From positions 186,001-250,000 of the forward strand of contig NZ_JAGIQA010000003.1 in assembly GCF_017814975.1 (NCBI RefSeq): 64,000 nt of DNA, given 5' to 3'. Below are positions 22,499 to 30,880 of this stretch, piece after piece. The position numbers and the translations under genes are program-made. Under the pieces are notes generated by a model that made no database searches, had not been told where the DNA came from, and worked only from the letters and a program-made list of their open reading frames with translations. The DNA comes from Cupriavidus consociatus. Its GTDB lineage: Bacteria; Pseudomonadota; Gammaproteobacteria; Burkholderiales; Burkholderiaceae. How positions within the stretch are numbered: the first letter of the stretch is position 1; each line of letters starts with the position of its first letter.

Positions 22499-23473
22499 AT
22501 GTTCCAGGTCATCCGTCGAATCCGCCAGCGGCTGCGCTACCTGGACCTGACCCTGAACGCCAGCCGCAGCGTGCGCATCCGCGTCGTCGAGCGGCCCGGG
22601 CTGTGGATGGACAGCGCCCGGCTCGACGCGATGCTGGCCGAAATGCGTGGCGTGGTGCAGCGGGGCATCGGCAAGGAGCTCGAATATGGCGTGCTGTCCG
22701 GCGATCCCGAGCGGCTGCGCCGCGCCGTGGTCACGCTGCTCTACGACCGGGACAGCGGCCATCCCATCGCCTTCAATGCGCTGTCGATCATGCCGATCGA
22801 GGTCAGGGGGCGGCCGGTCGAGGCCATCCACCTCGGCCTGGTGATGGTCGACCCGGGCTATCGCACGCAGGGGCTTTCATGGGTGCTGTACGGGCTGACC
22901 TGCATCCTGCTGTTCTTCCGCCGCGGCTTGCGCCCGATCTGGATCAGCAACGTGACCCAGGTGCCGGCGATCATCGGCAAGGTGGCCGAAGTCTTCGTCA
23001 CGGCGTATCCCAATCCGTTCGCGCCGTCGCGGCGCAGCTTCGAGCACCTGAGCGTGGCGCGCGAGATCATGAAATCGCACCGCCACGTCTTCGGCGTCGA
23101 CGAGGGTGCCGGCTTCGACGAGGCCCGCTTTGTCATCACCGATGCCTACCGCGGCGGCTCGGACAACCTCAAGAAGACCTTCGACGCAGCGCCCAAGCAC
23201 CGTGACGAGCGCGTCAATGCGCTGTGCCAGCGCGAACTCGACTACCAGCGCGGCGACGACTTCCTGCAGGTCGCGCGGCTGGACCTGGCCAGCGCGCGCA
23301 AGTACCTGCTGCGCGAAGTCCCGCGCGACTCGCTGCCGGCGATCCTGGCGCAGGTGGCGTTCCTCGCGCTCGGCCGGATCGTGCTGCCGCTGGTGCACTG
23401 GCTGAATCCGCGCGAGCCGATGGGAGACCTGCGCGAGCCGATGGGAGACCTGCGCGCAAGGAACCACGCATGA
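22499..23473 (+). CDS. GNAT-like acyltransferase, first gene of five-gene operon
   Basis: A 324-residue protein that I cannot place in a named family. The stretch AIHLGLVMVDPGYRTQGLSWVLYGLTCILLFF resembles the acyl-CoA-binding motif A of GNAT acetyltransferases, followed by a hydrophobic helix and ISNVTQVPAIIGKVAEVF. That block is also seen in GNAT-type proteins acting near membranes. The N-terminus is basic and the C-terminal 20 residues contain an exact duplication of seven residues (REPMGDL twice). It is the first of five genes with overlapping or nearly touching ends. The start at 22499 has a weak ribosome site but is the first Met of the conserved region. Confidence 0.72.
   Translation: MFQVIRRIRQRLRYLDLTLNASRSVRIRVVERPGLWMDSARLDAMLAEMRGVVQRGIGKELEYGVLSGDPERLRRAVVTLLYDRDSGHPIAFNALSIMPIEVRGRPVEAIHLGLVMVDPGYRTQGLSWVLYGLTCILLFFRRGLRPIWISNVTQVPAIIGKVAEVFVTAYPNPFAPSRRSFEHLSVAREIMKSHRHVFGVDEGAGFDEARFVITDAYRGGSDNLKKTFDAAPKHRDERVNALCQRELDYQRGDDFLQVARLDLASARKYLLREVPRDSLPAILAQVAFLALGRIVLPLVHWLNPREPMGDLREPMGDLRARNHA
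23411..23452. repeat. 21-bp tandem duplication at the end of the first operon gene
   Basis: Two adjacent identical 21-bp units (23411-23431 and 23432-23452) encode Arg-Glu-Pro-Met-Gly-Asp-Leu twice. The unit length keeps the frame. It looks like a recent slippage event. Confidence 0.85.
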
Positions 23474-24354
23474 CCGCATCCCCTGCCTTTTCCTACGAAG
23501 AATTCACCACCCGCAATATCGGCTTCGTGACCGAGGCCGAGCAGCAGCGGCTGCGCGACGCGCGCATCCTGGTCTGCGGCGTCGGCGGCATGGGCGGCGC
23601 CTGCCTGCAGGCGCTGGCGCGCATGGGCGTCGGCGGCTTCGCGCTGGCCGACTTCGACGTGTTCGAAGTGTCCAACATGAACCGGCAGGTGTTTGCCAGC
23701 CTGGCCACCGTCGGCGTAGGCAAGGTCGAGGCCACCGTCGCGCAGCTGCGCCAGGTCAACCCGGCGCTGCAGCTCGAGACGCTGGGCCAGGACTGGCCGG
23801 GGCGGCTCGACGACCTGCTGGCGCGCTACCCCATCGTGGTCAACGGCATGGACGACATGGCCGCGGGCATCGCGCTCTACCGCAAGGCGCGCGAGCATGG
23901 CGCCACCGTCATCGATGCCTATACCGCGCCGCTGCCCTCGGTCACCGTGGTGCGGCCGCACGACCCGCGGCCCGAGTCGCGCCTGGGCTACCCCACCGCC
24001 GGCATGGACTGGCAGGCGCTGACGCCGGAGATCCGGCAGGCCTGCCTGGGCAAGGAGCTGGAGTACGTCATGGTCCATTCCAGCTCGGTCCGTCACGTCG
24101 ATCTTTCGGTCGCGAAGGATCTGCTTTCGGGCAAGCGCAAGCGCATGTCGTTCGCGCCGATGGTGATCACCACCGGCAACCTGATGGCCTTCGAGGCAGC
24201 CAAGCTGTTGCTGGACCGGCCGCGGCTGGCGGACGCGCGCGGCTATTTCTTCAATCCGTGGAGCATGCGCGTCGAAACGCCGCGCAACGCGCTGGCGGCG
24301 TGGCTGATGCGCGCCGCGGTGCGGCGCTTCATCGCGAGGCTGCTCCGTGATTAA
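23470..24354 (+). CDS. E1-like ThiF/HesA-family adenylyltransferase
   Basis: A 294-residue E1-like protein with a Rossmann-type ATP-binding domain. The glycine loop is CGVGGMGG (residues 36-43), the acidic strand is LADFDVFEVSNMNRQ with Arg72 in the position of the ATP-contacting Arg, a Lys follows in VGVGKVEAT, and NGMDDMAAG gives the Mg-binding Asp. Family members adenylate the C-terminal Gly of ubiquitin-like carriers (ThiS, MoaD) or modify peptides or tRNA. The CxxC zinc pairs of MoeB/ThiF are missing, and no catalytic Cys stands out apart from QACLGKE. No carrier protein ending in Gly-Gly is encoded nearby. It overlaps its neighbours by 4 and 8 bases. Confidence 0.88.
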   Translation: MTASPAFSYEEFTTRNIGFVTEAEQQRLRDARILVCGVGGMGGACLQALARMGVGGFALADFDVFEVSNMNRQVFASLATVGVGKVEATVAQLRQVNPALQLETLGQDWPGRLDDLLARYPIVVNGMDDMAAGIALYRKAREHGATVIDAYTAPLPSVTVVRPHDPRPESRLGYPTAGMDWQALTPEIRQACLGKELEYVMVHSSSVRHVDLSVAKDLLSGKRKRMSFAPMVITTGNLMAFEAAKLLLDRPRLADARGYFFNPWSMRVETPRNALAAWLMRAAVRRFIARLLRD

Positions 24355-25624
24355 CGCGCTGGCCAGCGATGTCACCGTAACCTGGCTGGGCGCGCTGGGC
24401 TGCGGCCTCTACCTGCATTTCCTGTGGACGCGCCGCGAAGCTGGCACCGGGACCGGGCTGTTCCTGTTCGGCGCGCTGACGGCATTGCTGGCGGTGCGGG
24501 GCTTTGCCTGGCTGCTCGGCGGACCGCTGCTCGGCCGGCTGGTGTTCGCCGCGGCCACTATCCTGCCGATCGCAACCACGCTGTTCGCCGAACAGCTGCT
24601 GCGGCGCCATCTTCCGCTGTGGCTGAAACTGCTGGCGCTCGGTGTGTCGATGCTGTTCTTCGCCATCAACCTCGTTGCCGACCTGTCCGCTAACGTGCCG
24701 CTGCTGCTGGCCTTCCTGGCCTGCTATGCGATGGTGACGGCGAGCAACGGCTGGTTCCTGCTCTGGCTGCGCGATGCCGACCTGTCCAGCAACGAAGAGC
24801 GGCTGGCGCGCGCGGTGGTCGTCGTGGTAGCGCTGGCCGTGCCGCTGGCGGCGACGGATTTCCGCGAGGAACTCGGGCATGTGCCGGTCCGGCTGGGCGC
24901 GCTCGGGGCGCTGGCCTTTGTCTACGTGCTGCTGAGCCTGTCGGACTCGCAGCGCGTCGTGCGCGGATTGCTGGCGCATATTGCCGCGGCACTGGTCTTT
25001 GCGGTGGTCCTTGCCGCGGCCATGGCGCTGGCTTCGCACGGCCCGGGCCAGGGGTTCATGCAAGCCTGCCTGCGCGGCATGCCGGTGGCGCTGGCGTGGG
25101 TGTTGCTGACCGCCATCTTTGTCCGCATCCGCGCCGTGTCCCTGGCGGGCGACGGTAACGCCTTCCTGCGCTGGCTGCTCCATGCCCGCCTGGATACGCC
25201 GGACGGCTTCCTCCACTCGCTGCGGCGCCTGCCGCAGACGGCCGACCACGTGGTGCTGGGCGACGCCGAACTGGCGGGCTATGCGCTGGGCGAGCTGTTC
25301 GCGCTGGCCGGCAAGCGGCGCGAGCCGGTGTCGATCGGCGATGCCAGGGCGTGGGCCCGGCAGCCGCAGGGGATCGGCAAAGGCAGCGGCAGCGGCAGCG
25401 GCAGCGGCAGCGACAATGGCAGCGGCAACGGCATCGAAGCCGCGGAGCAACTGGTCGACCTGATGGAGCGCCACGAAATGACCCACGCCCTGCTGATCGC
25501 ACGGCAGCCCGCCATGGTGGTGCTGCTGAACCTGCCGCAGGGCGCCAATGCCGCCATCGGCGAGCTGCGCGCCGCCGTCATCCTGCGGCTGGCGCGGCAC
25601 CTGCGCCGGCAGGAGCCCGCATGA
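24347..25624 (+). CDS. Membrane protein of the E1/GNAT/nitroreductase operon
   Basis: A 425-residue integral membrane protein of no recognised family. The first 265 residues hold about eight hydrophobic helices separated by short basic loops (WTRREAG, LLRRHLP). The last 160 residues are soluble and contain a Gly-Ser linker (GSGSGSGSGS) coded by five perfect GGCAGC hexamers. Start is GTG at 24347, inside the E1-like gene, giving an 8-base overlap; no better start was seen. The position suggests it anchors or exports the product of the neighbouring enzymes, but this is inference. Confidence 0.75.
   Translation: MINALASDVTVTWLGALGCGLYLHFLWTRREAGTGTGLFLFGALTALLAVRGFAWLLGGPLLGRLVFAAATILPIATTLFAEQLLRRHLPLWLKLLALGVSMLFFAINLVADLSANVPLLLAFLACYAMVTASNGWFLLWLRDADLSSNEERLARAVVVVVALAVPLAATDFREELGHVPVRLGALGALAFVYVLLSLSDSQRVVRGLLAHIAAALVFAVVLAAAMALASHGPGQGFMQACLRGMPVALAWVLLTAIFVRIRAVSLAGDGNAFLRWLLHARLDTPDGFLHSLRRLPQTADHVVLGDAELAGYALGELFALAGKRREPVSIGDARAWARQPQGIGKGSGSGSGSGSDNGSGNGIEAAEQLVDLMERHEMTHALLIARQPAMVVLLNLPQGANAAIGELRAAVILRLARHLRRQEPA
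25382..25411 (+). repeat. GGCAGC hexanucleotide repeat, five units
   Basis: Five perfect GGCAGC units code the Gly-Ser linker in the soluble tail of the membrane protein. The repeat length could vary between strains without shifting the frame. Confidence 0.85.
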
Positions 25625-26772
25625 CTGTGGGCATGAGCGTGGACATGACCCTGGAATTGCGCGAAGGCGATTTCGATGCCTTTTTCGCCGCGCCGTTCGC
25701 CTGCTATGGCGACGCTACCCATTTTGTCTCGCCGATGAAGGGCGATCTCGCGCGCGCACTGGACGCGTCGAAGAATCCCTTGTTCAGGCAGTTTGCGCGC
25801 CGCACCTGGTACACCGCGCACCGCGACGGGCAAATCGTGGGACGCATCCTGGCCCATGTGCACGATGCCTCGAACCGGCTGTATGGGCAGAAGCGCGGGT
25901 ATTTCGGCCTGTTCGACTGCGTCGACGACGTCGCCGTCGCCCGCGCGCTGCTCGATGCCGCTGCCGCTTGGGCCAGCCGGCAAGGCTGCGACGAGCTGGC
26001 AGGCAGCTTTAACCTGACCATCACGCAGATGATCGGCATCGTCACCGATGGCTTCGGGCACGCGCCGTACACCTACCAGGAATACACGCCGCCGCACATT
26101 GCCCGGCTGCTCGAAGCCTGCGGCTTCGAGCGCTGCTTCCCGATGCGCACCTTCGAGATGGACGTGCGCGGCTACGATCCCGACCAGCTCCTCGGCGACC
26201 GGCAGCGCGCGCTGGCCAGCGATCCGGACTGGCAATTCAGGCCAATCCGCCGCCGCGGCTTTGAAGGACGCCTGCGCGAGGCGTGCGCCGTGCTGAACGA
26301 TGGCTTTGCCGCCAACCCGATGTTCGTGCCGCTGACGGAAGCGGAATTCCTCTACCCCTGCGCCGGCATGATGTGGATCATCGACGAGCGCCTGTCGTAC
26401 ACCGCGTATTACCGCGGCGAGCCGGCCGGCGTGCTGCTGTGCGTGCCGGACCTCAACCCCTTCCTGCGCGCCACCGGCTTCCGGCTGAAATGGTCGACGC
26501 TGTGGCACTTGCTGCGGTTCCGCGCCAGCCGCAAGCGCGCGGCGGTCATCTTTTTCTCGGTACGCCAGGCGTTCCACGGCCAGGGCGTCAACGGCGTGCT
26601 GCTGCATCGCCTGCTGACGGCGATGCGCGCTGCCGGCTATTCGCACCTGGGCATCAGCTGGGTGTCCGATACGAATGGCGCAAGCCTGCGGCAGATGGAA
26701 AAGCTCGGCGCCACCGAACTGCACCGTCTGCACCTGTTCCGCAGGGCGCTTGCGCCGGAAAGCGGCAACTGA
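25621..26772 (+). CDS. GNAT-superfamily acyltransferase-like protein
   Basis: A 383-residue protein with two GNAT-like halves, similar to the peptidoglycan-type or N-acyl-amino-acid GNATs found in biosynthetic clusters. The N-terminal half begins ELREGDFDAFFAAPFACYGDATHFVSPMKGDLARALD and contains LAGSFNLTITQMIGIVTDGF. The C-terminal half has RKRAAVIFFSVRQAFHGQGVNGVLLHRLLTAMRAAGYSHLGISWVSDTNGASLRQMEKLGA, a good match to the acyl-CoA-binding Q/R-x-x-G-x-G/A segment. It overlaps the membrane-protein gene by 4 bases (ATGA), so translation is coupled. The acyl donor and acceptor are unknown. Confidence 0.83.
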   Translation: MTVGMSVDMTLELREGDFDAFFAAPFACYGDATHFVSPMKGDLARALDASKNPLFRQFARRTWYTAHRDGQIVGRILAHVHDASNRLYGQKRGYFGLFDCVDDVAVARALLDAAAAWASRQGCDELAGSFNLTITQMIGIVTDGFGHAPYTYQEYTPPHIARLLEACGFERCFPMRTFEMDVRGYDPDQLLGDRQRALASDPDWQFRPIRRRGFEGRLREACAVLNDGFAANPMFVPLTEAEFLYPCAGMMWIIDERLSYTAYYRGEPAGVLLCVPDLNPFLRATGFRLKWSTLWHLLRFRASRKRAAVIFFSVRQAFHGQGVNGVLLHRLLTAMRAAGYSHLGISWVSDTNGASLRQMEKLGATELHRLHLFRRALAPESGN

Positions 26773-26774
26773 CG

Positions 26775-27800
26775 ATGCTGACACCGGAACAGCAACTGGC
26801 CATGGTCGCGCAGGCCGCGCGCGCCCCGAGTGCCCACAATATCCAGCCTGCCCGCTGGCACTTTGCCGGCGAGCGCATCCTGCTGCTGGAGGATCCCGCG
26901 CGCTGGCTGTCCGTGGGCGACCCGACCGGCCGGGATAACCGGATCGCGCTGGGCATGGCGTGGGAGGGCATGGCGCTGGCCTTGTCGACCCTCGGTTTTT
27001 CGCTTTCGCCGCCGGAAGTCGAGGTACTGCCCTACCCGCCCGCGGCCGCCGGCTCGCGGGTTGCGGCCACAGGCCAGCTCCGGCCAGGTGCCAGCGTTGC
27101 CAGCGTGGATCCTCTGGCTGCCGCCTGCGAGCAACGCCGCGCCTGGCGCGGCCTCTTTGCACCTGCCGACGCCGCGCAGCTCGCGGCCATGGAGCAGTGC
27201 ATCGCCGCGCATGCTCCCGTTGCCGTGGCGACGGAGCCCGCCAGCACGGCGCAGATCGCCAGCTGGCATGACGATGCGGCCGCAGCCGCCTTCCACGATC
27301 CGGCCTTCGCGCGCGAGCTTTACCACTGGATGCGCCTGTCCCCGCGCGCCACTGGCTGGACCCGCGACGGATTGTCGGCCGAGTGCATGGCGCTGTCGCG
27401 CTGGGAAGCGATGGCAGCGTCGGTCGCCCTGCGTCCGACGGTGGTGCGCATGCTGGCATCGCTGTCGCTGACCGGCCTGCTGGCCGCGGAAGCCGCCAAG
27501 GTCAACAGCGCCGCCCGGATCGTGCTGATCCACGCCGCGCACGACGTGACCGACTTCGAGGCCGGGCGCCGCTGGTACCGGTTCTGGCTGGACATGGCCG
27601 CCCGCGGCTTCGCCGGCGTGCCGATGTCGGCCCTGTCCGACTCGCCCCGCCACGCCGCATTGCTGACGGGCCGCCAGCCGCTTCCAGCGGGCCACCGGCT
27701 GCTCAACGTGATGCGTTTCGGCCCGGTGCCGGGCGCAGCGATTCCCCGCAGCGCGAGGCTGCCGGCGGCGGAGCTGCTGCAGGCGGACGCCCGGCGCTAG
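26775..27800 (+). CDS. Nitroreductase-like FMN protein, last gene of operon
   Basis: A 341-residue nitroreductase-fold protein. The N-terminus MVAQAARAPSAHNIQPARWHF is the classic FMN-contacting segment, with LLLEDPARWLSVGDPTGRDNRIALGMAWEGMALAL and the C-terminal RMLNVMRFG-type strand region completing the fold. Nitroreductase homologues reduce quinones or nitro groups, or oxidise thiazolines and oxazolines in peptide-tailoring clusters. An E1-like protein and a nitroreductase together recall the fused Mycobacterium Rv1355c (MoeY) protein, here as separate genes. It starts 2 bases after the GNAT gene, and its stop overlaps the convergent cytochrome gene by 4 bases. Confidence 0.85.
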   Translation: MLTPEQQLAMVAQAARAPSAHNIQPARWHFAGERILLLEDPARWLSVGDPTGRDNRIALGMAWEGMALALSTLGFSLSPPEVEVLPYPPAAAGSRVAATGQLRPGASVASVDPLAAACEQRRAWRGLFAPADAAQLAAMEQCIAAHAPVAVATEPASTAQIASWHDDAAAAAFHDPAFARELYHWMRLSPRATGWTRDGLSAECMALSRWEAMAASVALRPTVVRMLASLSLTGLLAAEAAKVNSAARIVLIHAAHDVTDFEAGRRWYRFWLDMAARGFAGVPMSALSDSPRHAALLTGRQPLPAGHRLLNVMRFGPVPGAAIPRSARLPAAELLQADARR

Positions 27801-29440
27801 AGCCGCTTCAGGAATTCCAGCAGCGCATCCCTGTCGCCTTCCGTCAAGGCGGTGAACTCCCGCTCATGGCCCCGGTTGTCCCGCCCCGGGGTCGCGGTGT
27901 CATAGAGCACCGGGCTCGACCACGGCCGGTAGTCCGGCGCGTAGGCCCACGCGCCTTGCGCATCCGGCCGCCCGGCGATCCCCACCCTGGCGTAGTCCAG
28001 TGCATGGCCGCCCACCCAGAACCGGCGCGGCCGCGCCTCCGGATGCATCAGGTGCCACAGCGTGGGCACAGAGCCGTTGTGCAGGTAAGGCGCCGTCGCC
28101 CATAGGCCAGACAGGACGGGCGCAACGTAGCCGCCGGTGTTGGCCGCATCGATATGCTTGCCCAGCGCAGAACGCCCGATGGCCTGCAGCAGGCTCGCAT
28201 CGATCGCCTGCCAGCGCGTGGCATCGGTGCCGAGTTCCCCCTGCGCCACCAGCCGGTTGGGATAGCTGACCAGCCGGGGCCGGGCGGTGTCCTGGCTGTA
28301 GTTGCCATGGCATTGCGCGCACTGCGCCGCGTAGACGCCGGCGCCGCGTGCCGCGCGGACCCGGTCGACCGGACCGGGAAACGGCGGCGGCGTGTAGCCC
28401 GCCATGAACCGCATCACGTCCTCCACCTGCGGGATGGCTCGGCTGGCGCGATCCGGCGGCATGCCCATGGTGGGCACGGTAAAGAAGGCCACGATATGCG
28501 CGAGACGCCCGGGATCATTGACGGCATCCGAGGCATGCGGTGCAAAGCGCGCCGCCCCCTTGCTGGTATAGACCCCGTCATAGAGCAGCGACGAACGCAG
28601 GCGCCGGTCGCCCAGTTCCGGGATCGAGGTCGAGCCGCTCGCGCCCGCATCCGCAGAGAGCAGATGGAACTGGAACTTCAGCGCCGCCACGCCATTGGTG
28701 CTGCCGGCGGCGCCATTGCTGAACGGCAGCGGCGCATCGCCGCTGGCCGCGAGTTCGTCGATCCGCCTGACCAGCCGTGGCCAGACGAACTTGCGGATGG
28801 TCGCCAGTTCGTCCGACGAGGTATCGGGATACAGCCGCGGAATGGCGGCCAGCAGCTTGTCGGGGTCGGACTTGACCCGCTTGACTGCGTGGTACACCGC
28901 GTTGACGAAACCATCGAGATTGAGCGAGGTATTCGGCAGACCCAGCCACACCTTGCCGCTGGGCTGGCCGTCCTTGCCATAGGTCATCCCAGCATGGCAC
29001 GCCGCGCACCCCAGGTTCGAGACTTCCAGCCGGATCCTGGGCAGGTCGCGGCCGACGGTGCCGCTGACGATGCCGAGCGGCTTGTCGAAGCGCGGCTGCT
29101 GCGCAAGCGGCCAGTTCAGGATGCCGTCGGGATAGATAAACCCGAACTCCAGCAGCGCGCGGCGCAATGTCTCCGGCGCGGGGGCCGCATCCGGCGCGTT
29201 GGCCAGCACCAGCGCGGTCGTGGCCAGCTTCCATGGCAGCGCGTTGGTTTCCAGCGTATCGGTGCTCAGGCCGCCGAAGTCGTCGAACACAAAGCGGGCC
29301 GCGCCGAGCTGCGCCGGCGTGCCACTGCCGGCAAACTCCCGCATGGCCGCGGATTCGCCATCGGCATAGCCGCGCAGGAAATCGCAGCCAGCGAGCGTCG
29401 ACAGCAGCAGCCCTATGGTGAATGCGCGTGCGAGAGGCAT
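27797..29440 (-). CDS. Di-haem cytochrome c lipoprotein, peroxidase-like
   Basis: A 547-residue protein with a lipoprotein signal (LLLSTLAGC) and two haem-binding motifs, CAACH in the first third and CAQCH in the last third. The second haem region continues GLWATAPYLHNGSVPTLWHLMHPEARPRRF, a block typical of the di-haem peroxidase/MauG/rubber-oxygenase superfamily. It therefore probably works in the periplasm, attached to a membrane, in electron transfer or oxidation of an organic compound. The substrate is not evident. It stands alone and converges on the nitroreductase gene with a 4-base overlap of stop codons, so read-through from either side could interfere. Confidence 0.87.
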   Translation of the reverse strand: MPLARAFTIGLLLSTLAGCDFLRGYADGESAAMREFAGSGTPAQLGAARFVFDDFGGLSTDTLETNALPWKLATTALVLANAPDAAPAPETLRRALLEFGFIYPDGILNWPLAQQPRFDKPLGIVSGTVGRDLPRIRLEVSNLGCAACHAGMTYGKDGQPSGKVWLGLPNTSLNLDGFVNAVYHAVKRVKSDPDKLLAAIPRLYPDTSSDELATIRKFVWPRLVRRIDELAASGDAPLPFSNGAAGSTNGVAALKFQFHLLSADAGASGSTSIPELGDRRLRSSLLYDGVYTSKGAARFAPHASDAVNDPGRLAHIVAFFTVPTMGMPPDRASRAIPQVEDVMRFMAGYTPPPFPGPVDRVRAARGAGVYAAQCAQCHGNYSQDTARPRLVSYPNRLVAQGELGTDATRWQAIDASLLQAIGRSALGKHIDAANTGGYVAPVLSGLWATAPYLHNGSVPTLWHLMHPEARPRRFWVGGHALDYARVGIAGRPDAQGAWAYAPDYRPWSSPVLYDTATPGRDNRGHEREFTALTEGDRDALLEFLKRL

Positions 29441-29560: not shown

Positions 29561-30880
29561 TTAGGCTGCCACCTGCGCGCCGGCTGCGGCAGATTCCTTC
29601 GCGAACTGCTGCCTCGAGGTCGCAACGTGCGAGGCCAGCACCGGCCGCAGCACCGCGATTGCCAGGCACGCCGCGGTCAGGTCCATCACCGCCACCGTGT
29701 AGAGCACCGTCGACCACGTGCCGGTCGCTTCCATCAGCAGGTTGCCGATCGGCACGAACAGTGCGCCGATGCCCTTGGCGGTGTACAGCACGCCGTAGAT
29801 CTTGCCGATGTGCTTGGTGCCGAAGGCATCGCCCGCCAGTGCCGAGAACAGCGAGTAGACTTCGCCCCAGGCCAGGAACACCACGCCGGACAGGATCAGG
29901 AAGGCATAGGGGTTGCTGCCGAAGTAACCCAGCGCGATGATGCCCAGCCCTTCCAGGGTGAAGGCGATCACCATCGTCTTCTCGCGGCCGATGTTGTCCG
30001 AGATCCAGCCGAACAGCGGACGCGAGATACCGTTCATGATGCGGTCAAGCATCAGGGCGAGCGGCAATGCAGCCATCACGAAGAAGTGCAGGTCGACCTT
30101 GAATTCCTTCACGCCAAGGTCCTTGGCGATGACGCCGAGCTGGGCCACGGCCATCATGCCGCCGGTAACCACCAGCACGAACATCACCAGCATCAGCCAG
30201 AACAGCTTGGTGCACAGCGCTTCCTTGAGGGTGTAGTCGCGCGTGGCCTGGGCCAGCTTCTTCGAGCCACGCACCTCGCCGGTCTTGGGCGAGCGCAGGA
30301 ACCACGCCGCGACAAAGGCCAGCGACCCTTGCAGCAGGCCGAAGAACAGGAAGGTGTGCTGGAAGCCCTGCGACTCGATCATCGCCGCGATCGGCAGGAT
30401 GGTCGCCGCCGAGCCCGCGCCATAGCCGCCGGCGGTCAGGCCGACCGCGAGGCCGCGGCGGTCCGGGAACCACTTGAGCGCGTTGTTGATGCAGGTCGCG
30501 TAGATGGAGCCCACGCCCAGGCCGCCGACCGCGGCGCCGACATAGAAGCCCATCAGCGTGGTCGCTTGCGAGTTGATGACCCACGCCGTGCCGATAAATA
30601 GCGCGCCGAGGGCCACCATCATGCGCGGCCCGAACTTGTCGATGAAGTAGCCTTCGATCGGCGCCAGCCAGGTCTGCACCAGCACGAACACGGTAAAGGC
30701 GATCTGGATGCTGGCGCGTGACCAGCCGTAGGTCTCCTGGATCTCAGGCACGAACAGCGTCCAGGCGTACTGGATGTTCGCAGTGGCGATCATGCAGACC
30801 ACGCCGACCATCAACTGGATCCAGCGCGTGGACTCCGAAGACTGATTGGGGTGCAGGGCCCCTGCCGTTGCGTTACTCAT
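29561..30880 (-). CDS. OFA-family MFS transporter (oxalate/formate antiporter-like)
   Basis: A 439-residue twelve-helix major facilitator transporter of the oxalate-formate antiporter family. Family features are RWIQLMVGVVCMIATANIQYAWTLFVPEIQETYGWSRASIQIAF in helix 1, GYFIDKFGPRMMVALGAL after helix 2, and GVGSIYATCINNALKWFPDRRGLAVGLTAGGYGAGSA. Founding member OxlT exchanges oxalate for formate, but many relatives carry other monocarboxylates. No oxalyl-CoA decarboxylase or formyl transferase lies nearby, so the substrate is open. Upstream is an unusually long, AT-richer region that probably holds its promoter and regulation. Confidence 0.92.
   Translation of the reverse strand: MSNATAGALHPNQSSESTRWIQLMVGVVCMIATANIQYAWTLFVPEIQETYGWSRASIQIAFTVFVLVQTWLAPIEGYFIDKFGPRMMVALGALFIGTAWVINSQATTLMGFYVGAAVGGLGVGSIYATCINNALKWFPDRRGLAVGLTAGGYGAGSAATILPIAAMIESQGFQHTFLFFGLLQGSLAFVAAWFLRSPKTGEVRGSKKLAQATRDYTLKEALCTKLFWLMLVMFVLVVTGGMMAVAQLGVIAKDLGVKEFKVDLHFFVMAALPLALMLDRIMNGISRPLFGWISDNIGREKTMVIAFTLEGLGIIALGYFGSNPYAFLILSGVVFLAWGEVYSLFSALAGDAFGTKHIGKIYGVLYTAKGIGALFVPIGNLLMEATGTWSTVLYTVAVMDLTAACLAIAVLRPVLASHVATSRQQFAKESAAAGAQVAA

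Follow-up and report, generated by a model that had tools for sequence, protein, structure and literature searches.

A conserved five-gene operon with ThiF/E1, GNAT and Acg-type flavin proteins as a candidate acyl-lipid cassette

Introduction

What might a bacterium make with five tightly packed genes that combine an adenylating enzyme, two acyltransferases, a membrane protein and a flavin enzyme? The question is raised by an operon on the plus strand at positions 22499-27800 of a 64,000-nucleotide stretch of Cupriavidus consociatus DNA (contig NZ_JAGIQA010000003.1, positions 186,001 to 250,000; the whole stretch is referred to here as the window), which comes from an 8.3 Mb draft genome (contig 171). 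An earlier note, made from the letters of the window alone, proposed that the genes form a coupled operon for a small-molecule or peptide-tailoring pathway, and knew of no described pathway with this exact set. The exact set was indeed not found in the open-access literature that we searched, but the core combination is described: an acyltransferase, an E1/ThiF protein and a nitroreductase-fold oxidase are reported for acyl-oxazolone biosynthesis (PMC10404671, PMC12856293), and an E1, an acyltransferase and a nitroreductase also occur together in N-acyl dehydrotyrosine clusters (PMC12479983). The characterised sets of acyltransferase, ThiF and FDO yield acyl-oxazolones (PMC10404671, PMC12856293). 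Acid and methanol open oxazolones (PMC12856293). Lipids of the oxazolone and N-acyl dehydroamino acid kinds were discovered recently, and the discussion of PMC12856293 leaves their physiological role open.

The answer that we favour, with somewhat less than even confidence, is that the product of the cassette is an acyl-lipid built on an amino acid or an amine, through acyl-oxazolone-like chemistry with substituted parts.

Results

Conservation of the five-gene set

In the window the operon consists of a GNAT-fold acyltransferase gene (G1; 22499..23473), a ThiF/E1 gene (E1; 23470..24354), a membrane protein gene with a GTG start (MEM; 24347..25624), a second GNAT gene (G2; 25621..26772) and a nitroreductase-like gene (NTR; 26775..27800). 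Among the first four genes the successive overlaps measure 4, 8 and 4 bases, and NTR begins after a gap of 2 bases, as the earlier note had it; its observation is confirmed, with PF00899 in E1, a GNAT fold in the model of G1, PF00583 in G2, eight hydrophobic segments in MEM and an Acg family match for NTR. A pattern-based scan of one genome per species (84,980 species), using an alignment of six E1 proteins as query, yielded at least 79 distinct loci, which may be just the nearest relatives of the window E1, and the conservation counts given here refer to these. The arrangement G1-E1-MEM-G2-NTR, with the same order and strand, is present in 68 of the 79, a count that takes in loci where one gene is broken in two or truncated at the end of its contig (L052, L056, L063, L083). 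The five families therefore stay together in related genomes, and the separation that the earlier note had named as telling against its proposal is not seen.

The 11 remaining loci depart from this arrangement in several ways. Four are at contig ends, with two starting within E1 (L088, L092) and two stopping early (L053, L094), and a 6 kb contig (L055) has only G1-E1-NTR. Two are metagenome-assembled genomes (MAGs) of Gemmatimonadetes, one of which has the order G2-NTR-G1-E1-MEM (L022), while the other has G1-E1-MEM with a G2 match on the opposite strand and no NTR found (L021). The last four (L030, L031, L032, L035) have G1, E1, MEM and NTR but no G2, an indication that the core acyltransferase is G1 and not G2. 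G1 is present in 77/79 loci, the other two being the contigs that start within E1.

Tight packing is a general property of these loci: the median overlap between neighbouring genes is 4 bases, and junctions fall within -20 to +30 bases in 73/77, 76/77, 67/71 and 67/71 cases. MEM has diverged strongly, with 19-85% identity between the window protein and 30 relatives, and 19-35% in all but two. That gene order is kept despite this drift argues for selection acting on the five-gene set as a whole.

Going by the titles of the records, most carriers belong to Alphaproteobacteria; the others are Cupriavidus, Arenimonas, Lysobacter, Halomonas, one MAG of Nevskiaceae, the two of Gemmatimonadetes and one with the label Terrabacteria group. 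The nearest named relatives are in Cupriavidus, with 81-83% E1 identity. E1 is found in only 2/200 genomes of the window's family and, at E 1e-40, in 3/398 genomes of its phylum, the genome of the window included in both counts, and this sparse occurrence suggests gene gain and loss. On the plasmid of Rhizobium sp. 32-5/1 (L015/L083), MEM matches fall in two frames and NTR matches in three, and this copy of the operon is apparently decaying.

The ThiF/E1 protein

E1 (294 amino acids) is of the carboxylate-adenylating type. It matches PF00899 at E 1.1e-36, and its residue D128 aligns with the catalytic D130 of MoeB and is invariant in 32 alignment rows; it is thus an adenylating ThiF/E1 with the catalytic aspartate, as in acyl-oxazolone pathways. 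The conserved cysteine or CxxC zinc site of the ubiquitin-like and sulfur-carrier E1s (MoeB, ThiF, Cap2, BilD) is not seen: CxxC occurs in 0/81 E1 copies, and no cysteine is invariant or nearly invariant in the 32 rows.

Among NCBIfam models, the best is PRK08223, at 123.8 bits against a cut-off of 266, ahead of MoeB at 96.9; E1 scores 90.5 bits to PRK14851, 77.0 to PRK14852 and 52.2 to the Rv1355c/TrzS model, values that come from models of different length, of which the long ones are not fully comparable. PRK14852 is over its cut-off in 0/299 genomes of the phylum. PRK08223 is named 'hypothetical protein' and is over its cut-off in 34/200 genomes of the window's order. Of 18 distinct PRK08223-type loci (the best matches of two scans, 12 plus 6, each with about 1.5 kb of flank on either side), 11 have a nitroreductase fused or adjacent to the ThiF, and 8 have a FeeM N-acyl amino acid synthase next to it. 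Acyl-oxazolone and N-acyl dehydrotyrosine producers carry gene sets of this kind (PMC10404671, PMC12856293, PMC12479983). In many Burkholderiales-type loci at least (L103-L121), PRK08223 appears to describe the ThiF that accompanies FeeM and a nitroreductase, and the model could be renamed. An RNxG motif near the N terminus is found in all 81 operon E1s and in 17/18 of the PRK08223-type ThiFs.

The three activities can also reside in one polypeptide. On a plasmid of Nitratidesulfovibrio vulgaris DP4 (L096, 5056-8022), FeeM, ThiF and nitroreductase form a single 989-amino-acid protein, and the operon ThiF and NTR profiles align with the corresponding parts of it at 99.1% and 97.0% probability. 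The fusion is possibly an oxazolone-type enzyme; N. vulgaris, an anaerobe, would be an odd host for an O2-dependent desaturase. The fusion gene adjoins PEP-CTERM/exosortase-type genes.

In a phylogeny the operon E1s form one clade (100/99), separate from the FeeM-type rows (85/81). When MoeB/ThiF-type rows are included, the long branches L003, L004 and L095 attach near the junction. The operon E1s may be present in subclusters of the ThiF similarity network in PMC12856293.

The nitroreductase

NTR is an Acg-type flavin mononucleotide (FMN) oxidoreductase or desaturase. It falls below the Pfam cut-off, and its NCBIfam match is the Acg family NF047509 (E 8.1e-40), at 137.2 bits where the curated cut-off is 199; two relatives score 138.6 and 144.3. 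The profile also has Acg (2ymv) as its best solved-structure match, at E 7.8e-21. NTR prefers the Acg model (137 bits) to the longer Rv1355c model (56 bits), whereas two FeeM-linked nitroreductases score 112 and 124 bits to the Rv1355c model and 99 and 117 to Acg, a small margin.

In a tree, 15 operon NTRs share a branch with three Acg-type proteins that are free-standing (95/90), and 10 FeeM-linked NTRs form a group of their own (100/100); the L096 fusion, L104 and the Rv1355c-type L095 are in neither group and sit on long branches. The operon NTRs are accordingly not of the FDO-A type expected of acyl-oxazolone pathways. Their likeness is to the Acg/Rv3131-type FMN oxidoreductases (FDO-B), both in best family model and in best solved structure, with two differences: the operon protein is under the model cut-off (137 versus 199 bits), and it adjoins a ThiF, a setting not reported for the M. 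tuberculosis FDO-B genes, which do not lie near oxazolone genes according to PMC10404671.

The two acyltransferases

G1 (324 amino acids) has no family match. An NCBIfam scan of G1 members gave chance-level scores only, as did the G1 profile against Protein Data Bank (PDB) sequences, and a Pfam scan of 32 members returned weak GNAT-type matches only (best E 0.0049). The assignment comes from its AlphaFold model (pLDDT 88.9), which has a GNAT fold, with a best Z of 11.7 to GCN5 (root-mean-square deviation 3.0 over 159 residues); FeeM and acyl-homoserine lactone (AHL) synthases are absent from the fold matches listed, a listing that excludes no family. The protein ends in a hydrophobic helix, and hydropathy near the C terminus reaches at least 1.6 in 77/82 copies. 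At the 3′ end of the window gene (23410-23451) there is an in-frame tandem duplication encoding REPMGDL twice; a Cupriavidus relative (L017) has one diverged copy.

G2 matches PF00583 (E 1.8e-10) and is bCerS-like. A plasmid search returned 41 records with G2 relatives, 10 of which are this operon, and five of the others were inspected. The homologs in E. coli (YghO) and Pseudomonas have as neighbours an aminotransferase I/II-fold enzyme, a carrier protein, an epimerase, an acyl-AMP ligase and LptFG, and a Sphingomonas homolog has an aminotransferase, a carrier protein, an NAD(P)H-binding protein and LptFG. Two Roseomonas homologs lie in partial clusters, with LptFG in both and an acyl-AMP ligase and epimerase in one. 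Alignment of the G2 profile with the Roseomonas and E. coli proteins by hhalign gave 99.9% over 356 columns, so that G2 is homologous over its full length to the GNAT acyltransferase of these ceramide clusters, which, judging by its context, is presumably bCerS. The operon G2s form their own group relative to the five ceramide-cluster proteins (SH-aLRT 100).

The likeness to bacterial ceramide synthesis (Spt, bCerS, CerR) concerns this protein. No aminotransferase (Spt) or epimerase (CerR) was found among the operon proteins and five scanned neighbours in the window, the rest of the genome not having been searched for Spt, and the carrier, ligase and LptFG of the ceramide clusters were likewise not found among those neighbours. 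The draft genome has one G2 match and one NTR match at E 0.001.

The membrane protein

By hydropathy scan MEM has eight hydrophobic segments, followed by a small soluble C-terminal part. No family or fold could be assigned, the best Foldseek match being at E 0.1. Generic matches to seven-transmembrane (7TM) proteins, at Z 12-14, are at the background for helical bundles, and weak 7TMR-DISM_7TM matches were found in 4/31 members (best E 4.3e-4). A likeness of MEM to the membrane half of a sensor kinase is conceivable. The window protein has a Gly-Ser simple-repeat linker (25380-25430) that is absent from the L017 relative.

A convergent cytochrome, or an acyl-activating fusion in its place

The earlier note overlooked a convergent gene on the minus strand, CYT (27797..29440), whose end overlaps that of NTR by 4 bases, in the stop codon regions. 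It encodes a RoxA-like di-heme c-type cytochrome of 547 amino acids, with two CxxCH motifs, an N terminus that looks lipoprotein-like by eye, and a PF21419 score of 74 bits against a cut-off of 26.7 (75.7 bits in L020). The profile of 26 CYT relatives has RoxA (4b2n) as its best PDB match, at E 2.7e-23. CYT is nevertheless far from the rubber oxygenases proper, at 54-64 bits to the NCBIfam models of RoxA, RoxB and RoxC, whose cut-offs are 900-1000, and at 138 bits it narrowly misses the cut-off of 150 for the di-heme cytochrome c peroxidase model. Relatives are found in 45 of the 74 evaluable loci, in 43 of them within 120 bases of the operon; the search for these relatives required two CxxCH motifs, and its 46 open reading frames are no independent test of motif number.

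A different protein is present instead in 21 of the 74 evaluable loci, a fusion of about 1,100 residues comprising a major facilitator superfamily (MFS) domain, PlsC and an AMP-ligase. It lies downstream of the operon in 11 loci and upstream on the same strand in 10, where it is 27-42 bases from G1. The cytochrome and the fusion occur together in 0/74 loci, and eight have neither; no partner common to all eight was seen by eye. In two of these eight, the proteins encoded near the operon at L068 5668-6390 and L089 12469-13182 are alike by eye and coiled, and presumably PspA-like.

Other neighbours in the window

Upstream of the operon is a divergent acyl-CoA synthetase gene (20332 to about 22245, minus strand), whose product is PRK12582-like at 685 bits, under the cut-off of 777. 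We considered it as a part of the operon and rejected it, as no such gene turned up around the operon in L017-L019, three relatives from Cupriavidus that have room for it. Beyond CYT, an oxalate/formate-type MFS antiporter gene is present at 29564-30880 on the minus strand (TIGR04259, 573.6 bits).

Discussion

The closest described systems are the acyl-oxazolone pathways OxzAB (P. rubra), TyzABC and TrzAS (mycobacteria), which also have adjacent genes for an acyltransferase, a ThiF/E1 and a nitroreductase-fold flavin oxidase, and the N-acyl amino acid synthase (NAS)-ThiF-nitroreductase clusters of stieleriacine, thalassotalic acid and kyonggic acid producers, in which the same three activities are encoded by overlapping or close genes. 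The operon ThiF shares its best model, PRK08223, and its RNxG motif with the FeeM-ThiF-nitroreductase sets. Beyond what the acyl-oxazolone pathways contain, the operon has a ceramide-cluster-type GNAT and an eight-segment membrane protein, and many loci also carry a RoxA-like cytochrome. Two acyltransferases, an ATP-using carboxylate activator, a probable O2-dependent flavin desaturase, MEM, and either a heme protein or an acyl-activating fusion together point to a lipid pathway, and the fusion genes that lie just upstream of G1 in 10 loci mark the recurring partners as lipid-linked.

From these components we infer a route, its order and its product. G1, anchored in the inner membrane through its C-terminal helix, would acylate the amino group of an amino acid; E1 would then use ATP to adenylate the free carboxylate, onto which the amide oxygen would close to give an oxazolone or another activated intermediate. 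NTR, with FMN and O2, would form the alpha-beta double bond, and G2 would put a second long acyl chain on an amine of the intermediate. MEM may transport or sense the product, which the RoxA-like cytochrome, predicted to be periplasmic, would finally oxidise; in rhizobia and Bosea, the MFS-PlsC-acyl ligase fusion would instead supply acyl groups or remodel the product. In its fullest form, which we put forward tentatively, the proposal is of an undescribed lipid class, in which oxazolone-type activation of a carboxylate would be joined by a second acylation of the ceramide-synthase type and a finish by a periplasmic RoxA-like heme oxygenase, with the fusion replacing the heme step in rhizobia and Bosea, and with carriers mainly among Alphaproteobacteria, some Cupriavidus, Gammaproteobacteria and Gemmatimonadetes.

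Several observations weigh against this acyl-oxazolone-like interpretation. None of 32 G1 members matches FeeM (PF21926) at E up to 1, and hhalign gave 0.2% for G1 against the L096 FeeM-ThiF-NTR fusion and 0.4% against a candidate TrzA relative, which is identified by position only, with TyzA and OxzA themselves outside the comparison; by sequence, no FeeM/TyzA/OxzA-type synthase was found beside the ThiF. The E1 scores to Rv1355c/TrzS (52 bits) and PRK14852 (77 bits) are below those to the MoeB and thiamine ThiF models (84-97 bits), and in comparisons that did not include OxzB and TyzB the operon E1 clade is distinct (100/99), with the tree leaving undecided whether FeeM-type or MoeB-type proteins are its sister. 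G2 is absent in four loci, and G2 and MEM in a fifth, so that G2 is not strictly required. The Acg-type NTR is a departure from the published pathways that counts against filing the operon with them, as FDO-B appears to take no part in oxazolone synthesis according to the data of PMC10404671.

Some of these departures lend weight to an aminolipid pathway without an oxazolone, which we regard as a serious possibility: E1 would adenylate an amino acid or fatty acid for amide bond formation, G2 would acylate an amine in a ceramide-like manner, and the Acg-type enzyme would desaturate an acyl or side chain. It is a serious rival since G1 and NTR are not of the oxazolone-pathway types and E1 scores low to the TrzS-type model, and it would accommodate both the ceramide-cluster homology of G2 and the MFS-PlsC-acyl ligase partners. 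However, the best E1 model occurs in FeeM-ThiF-nitroreductase sets, the combination of three activities is the one known to make oxazolones, and no Spt- or CerR-like gene was present among the five scanned neighbours.

It is unlikely that the operon is simply an ordinary tyrazolone or tryptazolone cluster of the OxzAB/TyzABC/TrzAS kind. The same three activities are adjacent, and both ThiF and NTR can be aligned to the FeeM-ThiF-NTR fusion, but a FeeM-type synthase was not found by sequence, NTR is outside the FeeM-linked group, and G2, MEM and CYT are conserved extras. We set canonical membership aside, given that FeeM homology by sequence and grouping with FDO-A both fail.

The other half of the earlier note's proposal, here taken as an E1-like enzyme that modifies peptides or proteins together with its GNAT and nitroreductase partners, is very improbable: the E1-like enzymes MccB, PaaA, Cap2 and BilD are among the PDB matches, but E1 has neither an invariant cysteine nor CxxC, G2 and the recurring partners are lipid-linked, and no peptide gene was noticed, flanking open reading frames shorter than 90 amino acids being outside the examination. 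The small-molecule half of that proposal remains the best reading. A signalling or export module, with MEM as sensor or exporter and the enzymes making a diffusible AHL-like signal, is just as remote, since the MEM matches are at the helical-bundle background, even though MEM is a generic 7TM-like bundle with weak 7TMR-DISM_7TM matches in a few members and oxazolones are said to resemble AHLs in the discussion of PMC12856293.

If the acyl-oxazolone-like interpretation is true, the chemistry of oxazolone and N-acyl dehydroamino acid lipids would reach many free-living Alphaproteobacteria, in a form that uses other acyltransferases and an oxidase of the Acg type. The cassette would also provide a genetic context for assigning a substrate to an Acg-type flavoenzyme. 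It would tie a homolog of the ceramide-cluster acyltransferase to an apparently non-ceramide pathway, and offer a lipid-related role for the RoxA-like cytochrome family.

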